The notes beneath the pieces were generated by a model. That model worked only from the letters and a program-made list of their open reading frames with translations, searched no databases and was not told the DNA's origin. Positions 27,760-36,731 of a stretch of 64,000 nucleotides of DNA are shown piece after piece. Origin of the DNA: Leptospirales bacterium (GTDB taxonomy: Bacteria; Spirochaetota; Leptospiria; Leptospirales; Leptonemataceae); the NCBI GenBank assembly GCA_019694655.1, contig JAIBBN010000003.1, positions 62,001 to 126,000 on the forward strand. The letters are read 5' to 3'. The position numbers were made by a program, and so were the translations under genes. The stretch's first letter is position 1, and the number at the start of each line of letters is the position of its first letter.

Positions 27760-30254
27760 GCGCAGCGCTGAGCGCCGCTGCGCCGGCCGTTGCAAAGCTA
27801 CAGCATTGCAGACATTGTGGTCAGAGTCTTCCGCCGGGCAAGGCGCCCGCCGAGGCCCTTGATCCCGAGACGCAAGGTCCGGTCAGCTTCTGCTGTACGG
27901 GTTGCGCCGGCGCCTTCCAGTGGATCCACGAATCTGGCGCCTCTGCCTACTACCGCTTTCGCAGCGAGTACGCGCCGCGTCCAGGCGAGGGTTTGCCTGA
28001 CGACCTTTACACGATGCTGGAAAAGGAAGCGGCAGCCGATGAGAGCGGCTTTCGCAGCGGCGTCTATCGCCTGGAAGGATTGCATTGTGCCAGTTGCGTC
28101 TGGCTGAACGAGAAACTGCTCTCCCGTCTGCCCGGGGTGGATCAGGTTAAGGTGCAGCTGGCCAGCGGCCGCGTGCGTTTGCGCTGGAATCCGGCAGCAA
28201 GCAGTCTGGCTCAAATCGCCGCCGAGGCGCGACGCGCCGGCTATGTCCTGTCTCCGGCTTCCGGCGCCGAAGGCGGCCGCGAGGACCAGCTCTCGACCGA
28301 TCTTTTGCGTCGCATGGCTCTGGCCGGCTTCTTTGCCGGCAACATCATGCTGATCAGCGTTGCGCTGTATGCGGGCTACTTTGACTTCATGGACCGCTAC
28401 ACGCGAAACTTTTTTCATCTGACCGGCTTTTTACTGGCCACGCCGGTAGTCTTTTATTCGGCGCGCGTTTTTTTCCGCGGCGCCTGGTCGGCCTTGAAGC
28501 TGCGCCTGCTGAGCATGGACATCCTTACTTCGCTGGGAGTACTGCTGGCTTACAGCTACAGTATCTTTGCCACGCTGGCCGAACGAGATCAGGTTTACTT
28601 TGATTCGATCTGCTTTGTAGTTTTTGTGGTGCTGATCGGGCGCTTCATTGAGCGGAGGCTGCGCAGCCGTGCGCTCTACTTGCTGGAAAATCTTGGCAGC
28701 CGTGCGCCGCGCGCGGCGCGCCTGGTCGCTGCCGATGGCATTCACTGGATTCCCAGTTCGCAGATTGCGCCGGGACAGCGCCTGCGCCTGCTGCCCGGCG
28801 AAGCGCTGGCGGCGGATGGCGAACTGCTTGCGGAACGCGCCGAGTGCGATGTTGCCGCTCTCACCGGCGAATTCGAACCGGCCCTCTACCGCCGCGGACA
28901 GGTCATACCAGGCGGTGCAAAGGCCCTGGGGGCCGGCTTTGATATACTGGTTCGACGCGAGGCCTCGGCCAGTTACTTGAGTCGACTTAAAGAACTGGCG
29001 GAGAGCTCCATCGATAGCGCGCCGCGCGGGCAGCTGCTTGCCGAGCGTATTGGCCGCTGGTTTGTCGCCTTTGTTCTTGTGGCGGCGACGGGGACGGCGC
29101 TCTACTGGGCGTGGTGGAAGGGCGATGTCGGCGCGGCGGTTTTGAACACCGTTGCACTCTTGATCGTAGCCTGCCCCTGCGCCTTGAATCTGGCCATTCC
29201 CTCGGCCTCCATTGCTGCGGTGCAGCGGGCCTTCCGACGGGGCGTAGCCCTGCGCGACGCCAGCGCACTGGAGCGGCTGGCGGCGGTGCGAACTATGGTC
29301 TTTGACAAGACGGGCACGCTCACCGCCGGTCGTTTGAAACTTGCCGCTGTTCAGATTCTCGATGCTTCCATCGACGAAGTGCGCGCCCTGCAACTGGCTG
29401 CGGACCTCGAATCCAGTGCGGCCGTGCGTCATCCCCTGGCCGAGGGATTTCGTCGCGCTGCTGGCGCCTCCGCAACCAGCTTTGACTCCGCGACGTTTTC
29501 GCCAGGCTGCGGCGTCGAAGGCAAGGCCGGCGGCGCCGCGTATCGACTGGGCGCACTGCACTGGCTGCAGGCCGACATGCGTGGCGCACTGGCGCCGCCG
29601 CCGATGGCCGCAATCGGCATGAGCGTCTATCTCTGGCAGCTGACAGAAGGGCAAGCCCGCCCCCTGGCCGTGTTTGGATTCGAGGATTCGCTGCGCGAAG
29701 GCGTGCCGGCGATGCTGGCTGAACTCTCGCGACACATGAAGATCTTTTTGCTCAGCGGCGATCATCCGCAAAATGTCGAGCGGCTGGCAATGAGCCTTGG
29801 AATTGTTGATTTTGCCGGCGGCCGACTGCCGGAAGAGAAAAAGGCAATGCTCCGCGACCTCAAGCGGCGCGGCCCGACGGCCATGGTCGGCGACGGCGCC
29901 AATGATTCTGGAGCTCTGGCGCAGGCTGATGTGGCGATCAGTTTTGCCCATGGCGCAGATCTGGCCATTGCGCAGGCCGATCTGCTCTTGCTGAACGAGG
30001 ACCCTGCTGCACTTTCCTATGCGTACCTTCTGGCGCGCTCCATGCGCCGCAAGGTGCGTCAGAATCTGGCCCTGGCCTTCCTCTACAACGCCGCCCTGGC
30101 GCCGCTGGCGATGATCGGACTGCTCAATCCGCTGGTTGGCGCACTTTTTATGGCAGCCAGCTCGATCACGGTGGTTCTCAACTCCCTGGCCCTTCGGTTG
30201 CCGCGGCATATAACCGAAACTGAAAAAGAGCTATGGAACTCCGCGAATACGTAG
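27756..30254 (+). CDS. ccoI: Copper-translocating P-type ATPase of cbb3 assembly
   Basis: An 832-residue P1B-ATPase that moves copper across the inner membrane for CuB insertion. From the N-terminus: a Cys-rich extension (C-R-H-C-G-Q, S-F-C-C-T-G-C), a heavy-metal-associated domain (G-L-H-C-A-S-C-V-W, ~108-116), eight helices with the C-P-C motif (V-A-C-P-C-A-L-N), the phosphorylation site D-K-T-G-T-L-T, the H-P dipeptide (R-H-P-L-A-E-G) and G-D-G-A-N-D-S-G-A-L. The Cys-rich N-terminal extension is typical of FixI/CcoI. Its last ~20 bases overlap the next gene. Confidence 0.95.
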   Translation: MSAALSAAAPAVAKLQHCRHCGQSLPPGKAPAEALDPETQGPVSFCCTGCAGAFQWIHESGASAYYRFRSEYAPRPGEGLPDDLYTMLEKEAAADESGFRSGVYRLEGLHCASCVWLNEKLLSRLPGVDQVKVQLASGRVRLRWNPAASSLAQIAAEARRAGYVLSPASGAEGGREDQLSTDLLRRMALAGFFAGNIMLISVALYAGYFDFMDRYTRNFFHLTGFLLATPVVFYSARVFFRGAWSALKLRLLSMDILTSLGVLLAYSYSIFATLAERDQVYFDSICFVVFVVLIGRFIERRLRSRALYLLENLGSRAPRAARLVAADGIHWIPSSQIAPGQRLRLLPGEALAADGELLAERAECDVAALTGEFEPALYRRGQVIPGGAKALGAGFDILVRREASASYLSRLKELAESSIDSAPRGQLLAERIGRWFVAFVLVAATGTALYWAWWKGDVGAAVLNTVALLIVACPCALNLAIPSASIAAVQRAFRRGVALRDASALERLAAVRTMVFDKTGTLTAGRLKLAAVQILDASIDEVRALQLAADLESSAAVRHPLAEGFRRAAGASATSFDSATFSPGCGVEGKAGGAAYRLGALHWLQADMRGALAPPPMAAIGMSVYLWQLTEGQARPLAVFGFEDSLREGVPAMLAELSRHMKIFLLSGDHPQNVERLAMSLGIVDFAGGRLPEEKKAMLRDLKRRGPTAMVGDGANDSGALAQADVAISFAHGADLAIAQADLLLLNEDPAALSYAYLLARSMRRKVRQNLALAFLYNAALAPLAMIGLLNPLVGALFMAASSITVVLNSLALRLPRHITETEKELWNSANT

Positions 30255-31666
30255 CGCTGACCGGCGCGTTGAAATCATCGCAACCTGTCCGATTGCCGAT
30301 CAGCGTTCTGGCCAGCACACAGCAAAACCTGGCTGTCGGTCTGCTGGCCAACGCCCTGGCCGATATTGGCGCCGCTCATCTGCAACCAGCAATCAATCTG
30401 GCCGTTCAGGAATTGCTGAACAACGCCGAGCTGGCGCTGCACTTTGAAGACTTCCTGAGCAGCAGCGGTCGCCAGGCGGACGATCCGGAAGGAAGATCGG
30501 CCTTTGCTGGCGAGTGGAAAGAGAAAAGCGCGGCATTGCGCGCCGCCCTGCGCAAGAAGCCGCCGCGCATTCAACTGGAGCTCAAAATCGAAAATGGCGA
30601 ACTGTTTGTCGCCGTTCATGGTTTGGGCGCGCTCTATCCATTTCAGGAGGAGCGTATCCGCCAGCGTTTGCAGGCGGCAGCAGCGGCGGACAGTTTACAA
30701 TCACTGGAGAAGATGAACTGGAAAACAGAACAGGGCGGCGGCCTTGGCGTAGCGGTCGCTGCCATTGCCCTGCGCCGGGCCGGCGGAGAGCTGCAGTTCC
30801 ACAAGAGCGCCGAGGGCGTTCGCTTCCAATTCAAGGTCGCTCCGGCGCGCGCCGCCGAGGAGCGGGTCGATCCGGGCGTTCTGCTCGAACTGGAGGCGAT
30901 CCCGGCTTTTCCCGAGCACATTCGCAAACTGCGCGAACTCTGCGACTCGCCGGTCTCCAGTCTGAAGCAAGTCGCTGATTTTTTGAATCGCGAGCCGGCG
31001 CTGGCCAGCGGCATCATTCGCCTGGCCAACAGCGGCGGCTTTGCCGGCGGCAATATCATTGATCTACACGAGGCGGTGAAGATCGTCGGGCTTCGCAATA
31101 TTTCTCAGCTCTTGTTGCAAGTGGGCGCTCTGGAAGTGCTGACCGCACGTTATGGCGGCAATGAGGAATTGATTGAACATCCCGTGCGCGTAGCATCCTT
31201 TGCTCGCTCGCTGGCCAAACGAAACAAGCGCGCAGCACTGGCCGATCAGGCCTATGTCGGCGGCTTGCTGCACGATCTAGGCAAACTGGTGCTGTACGCC
31301 GCGACGCGTAATCGTCCGGGATACGATTTTCTAAGTCATCATCGCAGCCGCAATAGCGTGGTGGAGATCGAAGAACTGGCCTGGGGCGTCGGACATGCGC
31401 GGGTAGGCGCCATGCTGGCTGCCAAATGGAATTTCCCTGCGCCCTTGATCGCCGCCATCGAGCGCCACCACGCGCCCCTGGCAACAGCCGACGCCCACCG
31501 CGACTTGTGTGACATGGTTTATCTGGCCAATGCTATGGCTGACAGTCTCGACGGCCAGTTGGACTTTTACTGTCTGGATCCGGGCGTTCTGGAGCGCTTC
31601 AATTTGACCAGCGAAGAGGCGTTCCTGATGCTCTCTTCGGCCCTGGACAGCGAAGCCTCGCGCTAA
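30233..31666 (+). CDS. HDOD-domain protein with an N-terminal ATPase-like domain
   Basis: A 477-residue cytosolic protein. The N-terminal half (~30-205) resembles a GHKL (histidine-kinase-type) ATPase: N-box-like A-V-Q-E-L-L-N-N-A and late G-G-L-G-V-A-V-A-A-I-A-L-R-R-A-G-G. The Asp of the G1 box is not clear, so ATP binding is uncertain. The C-terminal half (~220-420) is an HDOD domain, with L-L-H-D-L-G-K and H-H-A-P-L, used in bacteria for signalling and second-messenger-linked control. It begins within the end of ccoI (22-base overlap), so it is probably co-expressed, though functional links to the oxidase are unproven. Confidence 0.8.
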   Translation: MELREYVALTGALKSSQPVRLPISVLASTQQNLAVGLLANALADIGAAHLQPAINLAVQELLNNAELALHFEDFLSSSGRQADDPEGRSAFAGEWKEKSAALRAALRKKPPRIQLELKIENGELFVAVHGLGALYPFQEERIRQRLQAAAAADSLQSLEKMNWKTEQGGGLGVAVAAIALRRAGGELQFHKSAEGVRFQFKVAPARAAEERVDPGVLLELEAIPAFPEHIRKLRELCDSPVSSLKQVADFLNREPALASGIIRLANSGGFAGGNIIDLHEAVKIVGLRNISQLLLQVGALEVLTARYGGNEELIEHPVRVASFARSLAKRNKRAALADQAYVGGLLHDLGKLVLYAATRNRPGYDFLSHHRSRNSVVEIEELAWGVGHARVGAMLAAKWNFPAPLIAAIERHHAPLATADAHRDLCDMVYLANAMADSLDGQLDFYCLDPGVLERFNLTSEEAFLMLSSALDSEASR

Positions 31667-31667
31667 G

Positions 31668-31707
31668 GCGACGCGATCCTGGCAGCAGGCCTGTTAGCTA
31701 GCGTCGC
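31668..31707. terminator. Possible terminator hairpin between convergent genes
   Basis: GCGACGC (31668-31674) pairs perfectly with GCGTCGC (31701-31707), and the 26-base loop contains a CCTG/CAGG inner pair. It lies at the 3' ends of two convergent genes, which fits a terminator, but there is no T-run on either strand. Confidence 0.35.
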
Positions 31708-33155
31708 AGGTCGCCCAGGCGGCGCACAAATTTCACGATCTGGTAGTTCCAGCGATAGAAAATGAAACGCAGCGGTCGCGACTGGTAGCGGCAGACGTGG
31801 CCCACAGGCAGGCTGCGGTTGCGGCGATTGCTCCAGGTGATTTGCCCGCGAACGGAAATTGGCCGCCAGCGGCCGGGCAGTCCGTCGCTTTCCTGACCAT
31901 TGAGGTCGCCAAAGCGCAGCGTAAGGATTTCGCCGTCGGCAAAACTTTCGAGCGCCGATAAGAATACGCCCGTAGGTCGAAGATCAAAAAGGCTGAGCGT
32001 GACTTCGCGTCCGTCCTGCCGCGCTACGGCTGCGCCGCAAACAGCCGGCGTGCGCAACATCAGGTCGCGAAAATAGAGAAAGTTGATTTTATCGCTCAAC
32101 AACAGCAGTACTGCAACCGCCGCCGGAAAAAGTGAAAACAGCGAATGAATCAGCGGGCCATCGAGGTCCGGCAAGCGTCGCGGAAGTTGCAACGGATCAT
32201 GCAATAGCCACGCGGCAAGCGCCGCCAGCAGGAAGAAGACTCCAGCTGCCGTGCGCCAGGGTCCCCAGACCGAAAGCAGTAGTTGCGGCGTTTCCTCGGG
32301 CGCTTCTTGCATTTCATCGAGGCGCTTCTCATACTCGCGCTGGGCGAGCGCCACATCGAGATCGTCCGCGTCGATGCCTATCATCTGCAGTACATTTCGT
32401 CCAAACTGGACGCGGGCCTGGGCCAGGGTCAGCTCCAGCCAGATCATGCCAATAATCAAAAGCGGCGAGATCAGGTAGACCGCCGCTCCGCCGCGCAAGA
32501 TCATCCAATCGTAGAGTCCGTGGATCAGGATCGGCCAGAACAAAGCAGCGAAGATTCGTCGGTAGCGGCGCAGGGAGAGCCAGCCGCTACCGGTTCGCTG
32601 CGCTGAGGCTGCGGCCGCTTCACTCTCTGTTGCCTGGAGCGATTCGGATTCCTGCAGTTGCAAAAAGGAAGGGCTGGAGAGCAGGGACATGGATACGAAC
32701 CAGGCCATGATGCCCGAGAGGAATGCATGCAGCGGGATGCAGGTTAGACTGCGCAGTAGAATGACGTAGCCCGGAAAGCCGGCCGCATAGTACAGATTCT
32801 CGGCTACCGCAAAGCCCAGACCAATGAGAATTCCATCGAACACGCCTTCCACGGCGGTGAAGGTTTCGCTACTGCGCCGGAGCACGTTGTAAATAAACAG
32901 GAAGCGCACCAGCTCCTCGATGGCCGAAGCGTGCAGGAATGCTTCGATCAAAGGGCTATTGTCTGCTGGCAGGAGCTGGTGCAGTGCGCGCTGAACCAGC
33001 ATGGTCAAGGAGGCGCTGAAAAGGCCGAGAAAGAAGGCGCGGCTTTGCAGGATGATCGAACGGCGAAAGACGAAGTGCCTGAAGTAAGCGAAAAAGAATA
33101 CGGCAAAGACCCCCAGGGGGGCCGCTACCTTGACTACGCTTTCCAGTTTTTCCAT
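31698..33155 (-). CDS. PrsW-type intramembrane protease fused to a PilZ-like domain
   Basis: A 485-residue protein with about eight to nine membrane helices. The protease motif is visible: E-E-L-V-R-F (Glu80/81), G-F-A-V-A-E-N (Glu119/Asn120) and C-I-P-L-H-A-F (His143), as in the PrsW/CAAX-type Abi superfamily that cleaves anti-sigma factors. After two more helices, the last ~110 residues form a beta domain with F-D-L-R-P-T-G-V-F (D-x-R-x-x-G, the PilZ-like motif with Arg for Ser) and a Trp/Arg-rich strand region. Joining a membrane protease to a PilZ-like sensor is unusual. Start ATG 33155. Confidence 0.7.
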   Translation of the reverse strand: MEKLESVVKVAAPLGVFAVFFFAYFRHFVFRRSIILQSRAFFLGLFSASLTMLVQRALHQLLPADNSPLIEAFLHASAIEELVRFLFIYNVLRRSSETFTAVEGVFDGILIGLGFAVAENLYYAAGFPGYVILLRSLTCIPLHAFLSGIMAWFVSMSLLSSPSFLQLQESESLQATESEAAAASAQRTGSGWLSLRRYRRIFAALFWPILIHGLYDWMILRGGAAVYLISPLLIIGMIWLELTLAQARVQFGRNVLQMIGIDADDLDVALAQREYEKRLDEMQEAPEETPQLLLSVWGPWRTAAGVFFLLAALAAWLLHDPLQLPRRLPDLDGPLIHSLFSLFPAAVAVLLLLSDKINFLYFRDLMLRTPAVCGAAVARQDGREVTLSLFDLRPTGVFLSALESFADGEILTLRFGDLNGQESDGLPGRWRPISVRGQITWSNRRNRSLPVGHVCRYQSRPLRFIFYRWNYQIVKFVRRLGDLRR

Positions 33156-33189: not shown

Positions 33190-33228
33190 GAGAAAAAAAA
33201 CGCTCCGGCCGTTTCCAACCGGAGCGTT
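33190..33228 (-). terminator. Intrinsic terminator
   Basis: On the minus strand: AACGCTCCGG, 10-base loop, CCGGAGCGTT, then a run of eight T. The perfect 10-bp GC stem plus T-run is a textbook Rho-independent terminator, 23 bases past the stop of the repeat lipoprotein gene. Confidence 0.92.
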
Positions 33229-33250
33229 TCGCCTCGAAGCAAAGGACCGA

Positions 33251-34891
33251 TCAGGCGTTTGGGCGCAGGCGTCGGTAGGCGTAGATTCCAGCCAAACCAA
33301 GGGCTGAGATCAACACGGTAGCGGCAAGCGCAAAGACGCCGCCATTGCCTGATTTGCGCAAATAGCCGGCCAGCGCCGAACGGTGCGATTCGCCAATGCG
33401 CTCCAGTTTGATGCTGCGGATTTTTACGTTTGCATCATAGTCGCCTTCTTTGAAGCTATCGTTCAACCAGGTGACCAGGAGCAGCTGATTGCCGCCGGTC
33501 AGGTCAATTGTCGTTGATCCGCTCTTGTACTTGTTGTCGGCGGCTTCGACGTTCAACGCGGCGGTTACGCCATCGGCGGCCAGTAAGAGCTGAAAGGCAT
33601 CGTATCCGCGCGGGAGTTTCAGCTCGCCGTGATTTCTGGCCTCCACCGTAACGCGGTACTGTCCCGCCGGCAGATTGGCAAAGCAGAAGCCAGCGGCCTG
33701 GTTTTGCCAGTAGGTGTAGAGCGCGCCCTCGTCATCCAGGAAGAAACGGCCATTGGTGTAGCACATTTCTGATCCGCTGCGGTCCAGAGAGGATGCGGCG
33801 CTGACGCCATCAGCGTCCTCTACCCACACATCGCCAATCTGAATGTTTGCATCATAGACGCCTTCCAGATAAGCGTCGTTGGTCCAGACCAGGTTCAACT
33901 CCGGATTTCCTTCTTCCAGTTGGACCAGTACGGAGCCCGTATTCCATTCGCTGTCTGATGCTTTGATCAGCATGCTGCCAAGGACTCTGTCACTGTGACG
34001 ATCTTTGACCAGCACGATGAAGCTGGTGTAGAAAGAGGGCAGGGGGCCGTGGATATTGCGCGCCTTCACATGGAGACGGACCCAGCCGCTATTGCACTGG
34101 TGGAGTACTTTGGCGACCAGTTCCTGATCTTGCCAGTAGGTGTGCAGCAGGCGGTCGCCGCTGTTGCCATCGGTATACCATTTTCCGCCCTCCGGATGCA
34201 GTTGGACGGTGCGCTTGCTGCAATCGTCGCCGCTGGCGTTTTCATCATCAGAGTTGCCGTTACCGTTACCGCCAGCATTTCCATTGCCGTTGCCGCCAGC
34301 GTTACCATTGCCGTTGCCATTGCCGCCAGTATTGCCTGAACCGCTGTCGCTATCGCCGCTGCCTGATCCGCTGCCACTATCGGCGCTGCCTGATCCGCTG
34401 CCGCTATCGGCGCTGCCAGAGCCGCTGCCGCTGTCGCCGCTGCCAGAGCCGCTGCCGCTGTCGCCACTGCCAGAGCCGCTGCCGCTATCGCCACTGCCTG
34501 ATCCGCTGCCGCTATCGGCGCTGCCAGAGCCGCTGCCGCTACCATTGTCGGCGACCTGGTCCGTATCGCTGCCGCTCTGACCGTCGTCGCCTGGAGGAGT
34601 CTCCTCGCCCCAGCCGCCGCCGCTGTCTTCATCCCCGCCAACTACGACGCCGCTGCCGCCGCCGCCCGAGCTTGTATCGCCCGGCGCCGGATCAGCCGGC
34701 GGATCCAGTGTAACCGGTTCGGTGGCCGGGGTGTCTCCGGCGGAACCGCTGTAGTCATCAGGCGTTACGCCCGGTCCGCCAAGTCCCGCCAGCAGAAGTA
34801 ATGGCAGCAGATTGTCATCGCTGCCGCCACAGGTGGTTGCTCCGCCGCTCAGCAGCGCAACCAGCAACGCTCCAGTAATAATACGCTTCAT
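33251..34891 (-). CDS. Surface lipoprotein with Ser-Gly repeats, two CBM60-like modules and a C-terminal anchor
   Basis: A 546-residue exported protein. A signal peptide ends at a relaxed lipobox (G-A-T-T-C-G, Cys21). Residues ~70-225 are low complexity: Gly/Asp/Ser, then seven 9-residue units D-S-G-S-G-S-G-S-[GA] (126-188), then A-G-G-N-G-N-G-N repeats. Two beta modules follow (~228-355, ~370-505); each has Y-W-Q-[DN]-Q early and, near the end, [LV]-x-W-x-N-D-x-x-x-E-G-x-Y-D-A-N-[IV]-x-I, like calcium-dependent CBM60/CBM36 xylan-binding modules. A C-terminal membrane helix and R-R-L-R tail end the protein. AAGGAAAG precedes the ATG. Probably surface-exposed glycan binding; inferred. Confidence 0.8.
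   Translation of the reverse strand: MKRIITGALLVALLSGGATTCGGSDDNLLPLLLLAGLGGPGVTPDDYSGSAGDTPATEPVTLDPPADPAPGDTSSGGGGSGVVVGGDEDSGGGWGEETPPGDDGQSGSDTDQVADNGSGSGSGSADSGSGSGSGDSGSGSGSGDSGSGSGSGDSGSGSGSADSGSGSGSADSGSGSGSGDSDSGSGNTGGNGNGNGNAGGNGNGNAGGNGNGNSDDENASGDDCSKRTVQLHPEGGKWYTDGNSGDRLLHTYWQDQELVAKVLHQCNSGWVRLHVKARNIHGPLPSFYTSFIVLVKDRHSDRVLGSMLIKASDSEWNTGSVLVQLEEGNPELNLVWTNDAYLEGVYDANIQIGDVWVEDADGVSAASSLDRSGSEMCYTNGRFFLDDEGALYTYWQNQAAGFCFANLPAGQYRVTVEARNHGELKLPRGYDAFQLLLAADGVTAALNVEAADNKYKSGSTTIDLTGGNQLLLVTWLNDSFKEGDYDANVKIRSIKLERIGESHRSALAGYLRKSGNGGVFALAATVLISALGLAGIYAYRRLRPNA
34346..34516 (-). repeat. 27-base tandem repeat coding for a Ser-Gly linker
   Basis: Seven near-identical 27-base units, each coding D-S-G-S-G-S-G-S-[GA]. 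The period shows directly in the DNA as recurring GGCTCTGGCAGCGGCGA-like blocks. Copy number is likely to vary between strains through slippage. Downstream (34247-34333) are further, less regular Asn/Gly repeats. Confidence 0.85.
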
Positions 34892-35176: not shown

Positions 35177-35641
35177 ATGCGCCTATCCCGGAAATCTGAC
35201 TATGCACTGCGCGCCATTTTCATGCTGGTCGATCATCGTGGCCGCGGGCCGCTTTCCATTCGGCAGCTGGCAGAGGCCAACCGAATTCCCAAACCTTTCC
35301 TGGAACACATCCTGCTGGAGATGAAGGCGCGCGGTTGGGTCGAGAGCTTGCCCGGCAAACGCGGCGGCTACCTGCTGGCCCGCGACCCGGCAGAAATCAC
35401 AATGGGTATGATAGTGCGCCATTTTGACGGGATTCTGGCGCCAATTGATTGTGTTTCGGTTGCCGCTTATCGTCGCTGCAGCCAGGAAAGCGTCTGTCGC
35501 TTTCGACGCGTGCTGCTGGAAGTGCGCAATGCAGTGGCCAGCATGATGGATCAGGCCAGTCTTGAGGTCGTTCATCAGCGCGCGCTGGTATCGCATCGCG
35601 AGGTCTTCTCCGAAGGCTTCGTTGGCGGCGGAGGCATCTAG
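35177..35641 (+). CDS. Rrf2-family transcriptional regulator
   Basis: A 154-residue DNA-binding protein. The winged helix (~1-80) has the family's opening (M-R-L-S-R-K-S-D-Y-A-L-R-A), P-K-P-F-L-E-H-I-L and K-R-G-G-Y-L-L-A. Three Cys follow (Cys92, Cys101, Cys107; C-x8-C-x5-C), positioned as in [Fe-S]-binding members IscR/NsrR (C-x5-C-x5-C) but with a wider first gap. An iron-sulfur or cysteine/sulfide sensing role in control of the sulfate genes that follow is a good hypothesis. The next gene starts only five bases after its stop. No ribosome binding site is clear upstream. Confidence 0.88.
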   Translation: MRLSRKSDYALRAIFMLVDHRGRGPLSIRQLAEANRIPKPFLEHILLEMKARGWVESLPGKRGGYLLARDPAEITMGMIVRHFDGILAPIDCVSVAAYRRCSQESVCRFRRVLLEVRNAVASMMDQASLEVVHQRALVSHREVFSEGFVGGGGI

Positions 35642-35645
35642 GCCT

Positions 35646-36731
35646 ATGACTTGCCAGGTCCGCGGCGCTGAGCCTGAGCCCACAATAACGACTGAATTAG
35701 ACGTATATAGTCCGATTCGCGGCGGAGGATGGCGGCGGCGCCTGTGGCCGTTGTTTGGTCTGGCGCTGGCGGCGGCCTGCAGTCAGGGCGGCCCCGAGCG
35801 CCGGCTCCTGCATGTTTCCTTTGATTCTACTTCCGAGCTTTTTGCGCAGTTGAATCCAGTCTTCCTGGAGCAGTGGCAGGTCTACAGCGGTCAGCGCTGG
35901 CAAATGGACCAGAGCCACGGCGGCTCCGCGCGCCAGGCGCAAGCCGTACTGGAGGGCCTCGATGCCGACGTCGTCAGCCTGGCCCTGGCCTATGATGTCG
36001 ACCAGCTTGCCGATCCAGGCGGCCTGCTTTCCGTCGACTGGCAACAGGATCTGCCCGAGCACAGTTGCCCCTTTTTCTCCACCATTGTCTTCGTTGTGCG
36101 TAAGGGCAACCCCTGGCGAATTAGGGACTGGAACGATCTTTTGCAGCCGGGACTCAAGCTGGTCATGCCCAATCCGCGCAGTTCCGGCGGCGCTCGCTGG
36201 GCTTACCTTGCGGCCTGGGCGACGGCGCGCAGACGCGGCGGAGGGGAAACGGAGGCCCGCCGTTTTCTGAAAGCATTGCTTGCCCATGCCCAGTCGCTGG
36301 CGCCCAGCGCCCGGGCGGCGGCCAGCGACTTCGTTCAGCGTGGCCGCGGCGATGTGCTGCTGGCCTGGGAGAATGAAGCGCAATTGATCCTCGAGCGCCT
36401 GGGACCGGAAGGCTTCGAAATTATTACGCCGCCCATCAGCATTCTGGCCGAGCCGGCTGTTGCCGTAGTTGCCGCAAATGTCCGTCGGCACGGGGCCGTG
36501 CAAATTGCCCGGGCTTACCTGCATTACCTCTACCAGCCACAAGCCCAGGCGCAAATCGCTCAGTTCCATTTCCGCCCTCGGGATCACGCTGCATTTGCTC
36601 TGGGAAATTTCAGCAAGCTGCAGTTGCTGGATATTCGCCAGGAGTTTGGCGGCTGGCGCCAGGCGCAGCGTCGTCATTTTGCCGACGGCGCCGAATTTGA
36701 TCAAATTTTCGAAGAGGTTTTCCGGCCTTGA
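35646..36731 (+). CDS. Sulfate ABC transporter substrate-binding lipoprotein
   Basis: A ~361-residue protein of the Sbp/CysP family, binding sulfate or thiosulfate in the periplasm. Lipobox A-L-A-A-A-C-S is at ~residue 46; the mature part starts with V-S-F-D-S-T-S-E-L-F and contains Q-S-H-G-G-S-A-R-Q-A, the family's sulfate-loop signature, plus A-D-V-V-S-L-A-L-A-Y-D-V-D. The N-terminus ahead of the signal is longer than usual, so the real start may lie downstream of ATG 35646 (an upstream GGAGG is 12 bases away). Second gene of the sulfate operon. Confidence 0.88.
   Translation: MTCQVRGAEPEPTITTELDVYSPIRGGGWRRRLWPLFGLALAAACSQGGPERRLLHVSFDSTSELFAQLNPVFLEQWQVYSGQRWQMDQSHGGSARQAQAVLEGLDADVVSLALAYDVDQLADPGGLLSVDWQQDLPEHSCPFFSTIVFVVRKGNPWRIRDWNDLLQPGLKLVMPNPRSSGGARWAYLAAWATARRRGGGETEARRFLKALLAHAQSLAPSARAAASDFVQRGRGDVLLAWENEAQLILERLGPEGFEIITPPISILAEPAVAVVAANVRRHGAVQIARAYLHYLYQPQAQAQIAQFHFRPRDHAAFALGNFSKLQLLDIRQEFGGWRQAQRRHFADGAEFDQIFEEVFRP

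Follow-up and report, generated by a model that had tools for sequence, protein, structure and literature searches.

A C-terminal tail on unrelated spirochaete lipoproteins is paired with a PrsW-PilZ intramembrane protease and suggests a previously unrecognised protein-sorting system

Introduction

In the GlyGly-CTERM/rhombosortase system, a three-part C-terminal tag with a Gly-rich motif is cut by an intramembrane protease, a serine rhomboid enzyme (PMC3237569, PMC6219818). The MYXO-CTERM/MrtX and JDVT-CTERM/MrtJ systems also combine a three-part C-terminal tag with a dedicated intramembrane protease, of the glutamic type and of the CPBP family; the MYXO-CTERM tag has an invariant Cys, and the MrtJ gene adjoins a single target gene (PMC11980579). 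PrsW, by comparison, is known for cutting anti-sigma factors, RsiW in the case of Bacillus subtilis, and this role has been extended to LIC_20173, a PrsW-PilZ protein of Leptospira interrogans for which an anti-sigma factor was suggested as the substrate (PMC12943098).

Here we describe a lipoprotein gene and its neighbouring protease gene from a stretch of 64,000 nucleotides (hereafter the window) of a Leptospirales bacterium, and compare them with these systems. The source genome (G000) comprises 3.9 Mb, and its relatives, picked by name, were metagenome-assembled Leptospiraceae, Leptospirales and other Spirochaetota.

Results and Discussion

The tailed CBM60 lipoprotein

The lipoprotein gene occupies positions 33251–34891 of the window on the (-) strand (whole ORF, exact coordinates) and encodes 546 aa. 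A signal peptide of aa 1–20 (34832–34891, (-); read from sequence) precedes Cys21, which is retained in homologs having a complete N-terminus; the lipobox (..GGATTC, followed by GG) is imperfect with respect to the general consensus, with Thr at -1. Beyond the Cys lies a low-complexity Gly/Ser/Asp/Asn stalk (aa 22–222; 34226–34828, (-)), within which a 27-bp unit is repeated in tandem 7.7 times with 90% matches (34333–34541). Both the N-terminal lipoprotein signal and the Ser-Gly/Asn-Gly stalk of the original prediction were therefore borne out, the latter as a true tandem repeat. Homologs of the tailed lipoprotein were found in 13 of 41 related genomes, its own genome counted, and no paralogue was found when that genome was searched. 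Scanning of contigs with the alignment recovered 16 loci, compared with no match for a scan with the single sequence.

The stalk is followed by two modules that had been predicted to be CBM60-like, a prediction upheld by both profile and model. Module 1 (~aa 224–358; 33818–34222, (-)) has a W-x-N-D..D-A-N pattern that is invariant among homologs, and module 2 (~aa 368–501; 33389–33790, (-)), the model of which is closest to CBM36 (1ux7, 7ay3, XynJ), has decayed in some relatives. Pfam CBM60 (PF16841) matched the whole protein in two stretches (E 5.4e-9; 36.9 bits, cut-off 28.2), and the modules searched singly against the genome scored 24.2 and 19.1 bits, each below the CBM60 cut-off. An AlphaFold2 model of the modules and tail, built from 14 homologs (mean pLDDT 89.6), consists of two beta-sandwiches, a short helix at the juxtamembrane motif and one long helix. 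When the module 2 model was used in a fold search, CBM36 xylan-binding modules were matched at Z 14.0 (7ay3), 13.7 (1ux7) and 14.2 (XynJ), with CBM6 and CBM35 close behind at Z 12–13, and the exact family is not fixed by fold; CBM60 structures were absent from the fold matches listed, where CBM36, CBM6 and CBM35 were present. A sequence profile run against solved structures gave no CBM60 match and matched cyclodextrin glycosyltransferases weakly (E 0.014). Whole-model Foldseek TM-scores were low (0.2–0.35, rmsd 10–24), probably reflecting a different placement of the two domains and the tail. Judged from profile and model, the label "CBM60/CBM36-like" appears well founded for both modules; they differ from the known xylan-binding modules in that no glycoside hydrolase is attached. 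Binding of sugar and of calcium is a prediction, as is the role of glycan-binding surface adhesin first guessed for the protein.

The C-terminal tail

The protein ends in the juxtamembrane motif SALAGYL (aa 505–511; 33359–33379, (-)), then RKSGNGG, a 21-aa hydrophobic helix (~aa 519–539; 33275–33337, (-); from model and alignment) and the basic end RRLRPNA (aa 540–546; 33254–33274, (-); from the alignment). The three-part C-terminal signal originally read from this single sequence is a conserved feature, its form being kept in 14 of 14 aligned homologs. In a wider alignment of tails (A4, 31 sequences), the consensus motif S-x-L-x-[AG]-[FY]-[LI] is followed, after a short variable spacer, by a run of ~20 hydrophobic residues and then by K/R; no Cys was present in these tails, unlike the MYXO-CTERM tag. 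The helix is followed by about 3–13 residues. A stub of this length is too small to form a signalling domain in the cytosol and so speaks against signalling by classical regulated proteolysis.

The prospect of further proteins with the same tail in the same genome, raised with the original prediction, came to nothing: a tail-model scan of the window's genome returned one match, the protein itself, and related genomes had up to four tailed proteins each. Uniqueness within a genome does not refute a sorting signal, since JDVT-CTERM/MrtJ is a published pair of one enzyme and one target (PMC11980579). Across the genomes, matches to the tail model other than CBM60 and LruC proteins included a VWA-like lipoprotein (L192), a ~375-aa family (L193, L194, L195), a Ser-Gly-Ser-Glu repeat protein (L201) and others. 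The tail is missing from some LruC-domain and CBM60-domain proteins and is thus a separable module.

The neighbouring PrsW-PilZ protease

The next gene downstream, outside 33251–34891, encodes a PrsW-PilZ intramembrane protease of 485 aa (31698–33155, (-)), the candidate tail-processing enzyme. It matches Pfam PrsW-protease (PF13367; 6.1e-16, 59 bits, cut-off 23.5), and residues E80, E119, N120, H143, H212 and D216 are invariant in eight aligned enzymes. Against the NCBIfam PrsW equivalog it scored 57 bits, below the cut-off of 225, and it is therefore not a B. subtilis-type PrsW. Its PrsW part is followed by two helices and then a beta-barrel, the PilZ-fold domain (~aa 372–459; 31779–32042, (-)), which was assigned from a Pfam match in a homolog and a fold search of the model. 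Pfam PilZ was over cut-off in the close homolog L027, the window protein itself having no Pfam PilZ match, and Foldseek matched the window protease model (pLDDT 81.1) to the PilZ domains of PA0012 and Alg44 (prob 1.00, E 0.016–0.1). The search recovered the PilZ part, with no solved PrsW-like protease among the first 50 matches. Binding of c-di-GMP by PilZ was judged by the presence of [D/N]xSxxG together with RxxxR within the domain; [D/N]xSxxG was absent from the PilZ region of all PrsW-PilZ proteins scanned, and arginines are reported to be missing in LIC_20173 (PMC12943098). More distant members of the group have an extra cyclic-nucleotide-binding domain.

An intrinsic terminator lies between the lipoprotein and protease genes (33197–33230, (-); 15-bp stem, 4-nt loop and T run), with an MFE of -32.5 kcal/mol over a 66-nt stretch (z -4.9). 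Given its strength, the two genes are not simply one operon. If the protease were made by read-through, the terminator would leave the enzyme far less abundant than the substrate.

Pairing of tail and protease across genomes

A PrsW-PilZ gene adjoins a CBM60 homolog at 12 distinct loci (the window, L026, L027, L028, L030, L031, L038, L042, L090, L092, L094 and L096), which show tandem, divergent and convergent gene orders and reach Spirochaetota outside the family. Starting from PrsW-PilZ genes, six more loci with a tailed LruC-domain lipoprotein were recovered (L100, L113, L114, L121, L123 and L124), and a seventh LruC/PrsW-PilZ pair is present at a contig end in G028. Counted over the 41 genomes, 16 of 33 PrsW-PilZ genes adjoin a tailed lipoprotein (including that of G007, L042, a CBM60 homolog with a tail too divergent for the tail model), against ~0.03 expected by a rough estimate that ignores relatedness. 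When gene places were compared, 0 of ~26 short PrsW genes without PilZ were located beside a tail.

The two components also co-occur across genomes: both are present in 23, PrsW-PilZ alone in two, the tail alone in one and neither in 15 (Fisher p 3e-8, and p 0.003 within the two families having them; both values uncorrected for phylogeny). In G004, a 78%-complete genome, tailed proteins were present and PrsW-PilZ was not detected, and in genera g2 and g3 the sole PrsW-PilZ gene is not beside its presumed targets. That the tail is carried by unrelated spirochaete lipoproteins and is paired at the gene level with PrsW-PilZ is well supported; a three-part tag is common to otherwise unrelated proteins, and a single protease family accompanies it.

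An exchange of partners can be followed using the HDOD-domain gene that is the convergent neighbour of the protease gene in the window (30233–31666, (+)), a syntenic marker in L026, L100, L113 and L114. The order HDOD/PrsW/CBM60 is found in the window and L026, and HDOD/PrsW/LruC in L100, L113 and L114, the HDOD genes past PrsW at these five loci having ~40% identity. In the PrsW tree, the window/L026 set and the L100/L113/L114 set were grouped with full support, and the tree overall mixes partners such that several changes of partner type are needed. The ectodomain is exchanged whereas the enzyme remains associated with the tail, an indication that the tail is the part that is matched. In the literature searched, from which subscription papers were largely absent, we found neither a description of this pairing nor any paper covering both PrsW and CTERM, and an earlier description elsewhere is possible.

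LruC and LIC_20173 of Leptospira interrogans

In two public records of the second replicon of L. interrogans (plasmids in PLSDB), a PrsW-family gene lies 44 bp downstream of an LruC-domain gene. LruC is a lipoprotein linked to equine uveitis. The L. interrogans protein resembles that of the window in its lipobox, Ser/Gly/Asn stalk, S-x-L-x-[AG]-F-L tail (SELMGFLL..helix..KRR) and adjoining PrsW gene, and differs from it in having an ectodomain of the LruC type (LruC_dom, TIGR04456) instead of CBM60. The LruC homolog of serovar Copenhageni is LIC20172 (PMC8280789) and the PrsW-PilZ protein is LIC_20173 (PMC12943098), so that the neighbours carry consecutive tags; these identities were drawn from the papers, locus-tag order and the records of other strains rather than from the Fiocruz L1-130 record. 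LIC_20173 shares the domain order of the window enzyme (PrsW, two extra helices and a PilZ domain without the c-di-GMP motif; PMC12943098), and a PrsW-PilZ gene of its kind adjoins tailed LruC in both L. interrogans records. The difference lies in the partner, an anti-sigma substrate being proposed for LIC_20173 in that paper, whereas the window enzyme is paired with a CBM60 protein. For the lipoprotein LruC, an outer-membrane location is reported (PMC5406399), which is difficult to reconcile with a helix that stays in place and fits helix removal.

Proposed mechanism and alternative explanations

Taken together, our data suggest a previously unrecognised protein-sorting system. We consider it likely that the tail is a sorting and release signal, that PrsW-PilZ cuts it and frees the lipoprotein from the inner membrane, and that the same pairing operates across Leptospirales, where it would serve several unrelated lipoproteins including LruC of L. 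interrogans. Under this scheme, which is the most economical one, the tail would keep the newly exported protein, already lipidated at its N-terminus, in the inner membrane, PrsW-PilZ, as a glutamic intramembrane protease, would cut in or beside the tail helix, and the cut lipoprotein would move on to where it finally resides, which is probably the outer membrane. Regulation of the enzyme by its PilZ domain, or by the cyclic-nucleotide domain of some relatives, may be envisaged as a speculative addition. In a stronger form, which we regard as doubtful, enzymes with PilZ/cNMP domains would release tailed lipoproteins (CBM60, LruC, VWA and others) only upon an intracellular signal, placing the make-up of the outer membrane under control after translation.

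In operation, the tail and PrsW-PilZ would resemble sorting systems of the rhombosortase/myxosortase kind, yet belong to neither, because no rhombosortase was found and neither Gly-Gly nor Cys is conserved in the tag. By analogy, close counterparts would be MrtX and MrtJ (PMC11980579), from which the present system differs in that the enzyme belongs to the PrsW family and has PilZ, sometimes cNMP, domains, and in that the targets already bear an N-terminal lipid signal. The double anchor, regarded as odd in the original prediction, is understandable if the C-terminal helix serves only transiently. That prediction rightly identified an unusual double anchor, which proved real, and the kind of system, but wrongly named the enzyme as a rhombosortase.

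Gene adjacency could alternatively reflect a regulatory partnership. The lipoprotein might be a periplasmic sensor subunit, with its uncut helix binding and controlling PrsW-PilZ in the membrane; the helix and motif are conserved, the ectodomains vary as sensor domains do, and the enzyme has cytosolic sensor-like domains. We nevertheless consider such a subunit unlikely, as tailed proteins outnumber PrsW-PilZ enzymes in several genomes (four and two, respectively, in G003), and LruC is reported to be located in the outer membrane (PMC5406399), away from the enzyme. PrsW-PilZ might also act in signalling by cutting an anti-sigma factor, as PrsW does in B. subtilis and as has been proposed for LIC_20173, in which case the adjoining lipoprotein would be unrelated or merely co-regulated. 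No anti-sigma gene was recognised among the immediate neighbours listed, the report that makes the proposal does not mention LruC (PMC12943098), and a signalling role leaves unexplained both the repeated linkage, in three gene orders, to one type of tail and the exchange of ectodomains on a retained tail; we find it quite unlikely. Tails of this kind can be simple anchors, and the C-terminal helix could accordingly be the permanent, unprocessed second anchor of an inner-membrane adhesin, but the repeated pairing with an intramembrane protease and the outer-membrane location reported for tailed LruC (PMC5406399) make this very improbable. Lastly, processing of a GlyGly-CTERM signal by rhombosortase, as first predicted, shares the general three-part layout and the Gly-Asn-Gly-Gly before the helix, but was rejected as having next to no likelihood, since none of 31 genomes had a rhombosortase over the TIGR03902 cut-off (ordinary rhomboids were present in them), no NCBIfam CTERM model matched the window protein, and the Gly-Gly is found in the window sequence only and is not conserved among homologs.

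If tails are indeed cut by PrsW-PilZ, then PrsW would be a protein-sorting enzyme in addition to its known role, and another protease family would be added to those processing C-terminal sorting tags. Furthermore, LIC_20173 would gain a concrete substrate in LruC, the route of a helix-tailed lipoprotein to the outer membrane would be explained, and the label "PrsW family protease next to hypothetical lipoprotein" would become a testable enzyme-substrate pair throughout Leptospirales.

Additional observations

Several further features were noted in the course of the analysis. The source genome has a second PrsW-like gene (L044:4221–6356, contig 8; 711 aa) of a different subfamily. Related genes in L103 and L106 share a comparable neighbourhood, in which a CRP-like gene and a membrane protein whose C-terminal end is similar are found and a tailed lipoprotein is absent. 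The VWA-like tailed lipoprotein in G011 (L192:2606–4546) contains the sequence DNSGSM, and a shorter relative in G004 (L197) is also tailed. In G006, a 347-aa tailed lipoprotein without an NCBIfam match (L043:6768–7811) is encoded at a distance from the PrsW-PilZ gene of that genome. Just past the start of the lipoprotein gene in the window, a gene for an Rrf2-family regulator (35177–35641) adjoins one for a sulfate ABC transporter substrate-binding protein (35562–36731).

The residues that follow the lipid Cys were also compared. Across L130–L159, a Lys-rich spacer leading into a hydrophobic cluster is common in the tailed lipoproteins (CGKKKNPFLLLL, CSHKKKGILLPFL), and the corresponding stretch of untailed LruC proteins tends to be acidic (CNSSEDPNLAWLL). 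This difference between tailed and untailed proteins is possibly a lipoprotein sorting determinant. In the window lipoprotein, the lipid Cys (34829) is followed by CGGSDDNLLPLLLL.
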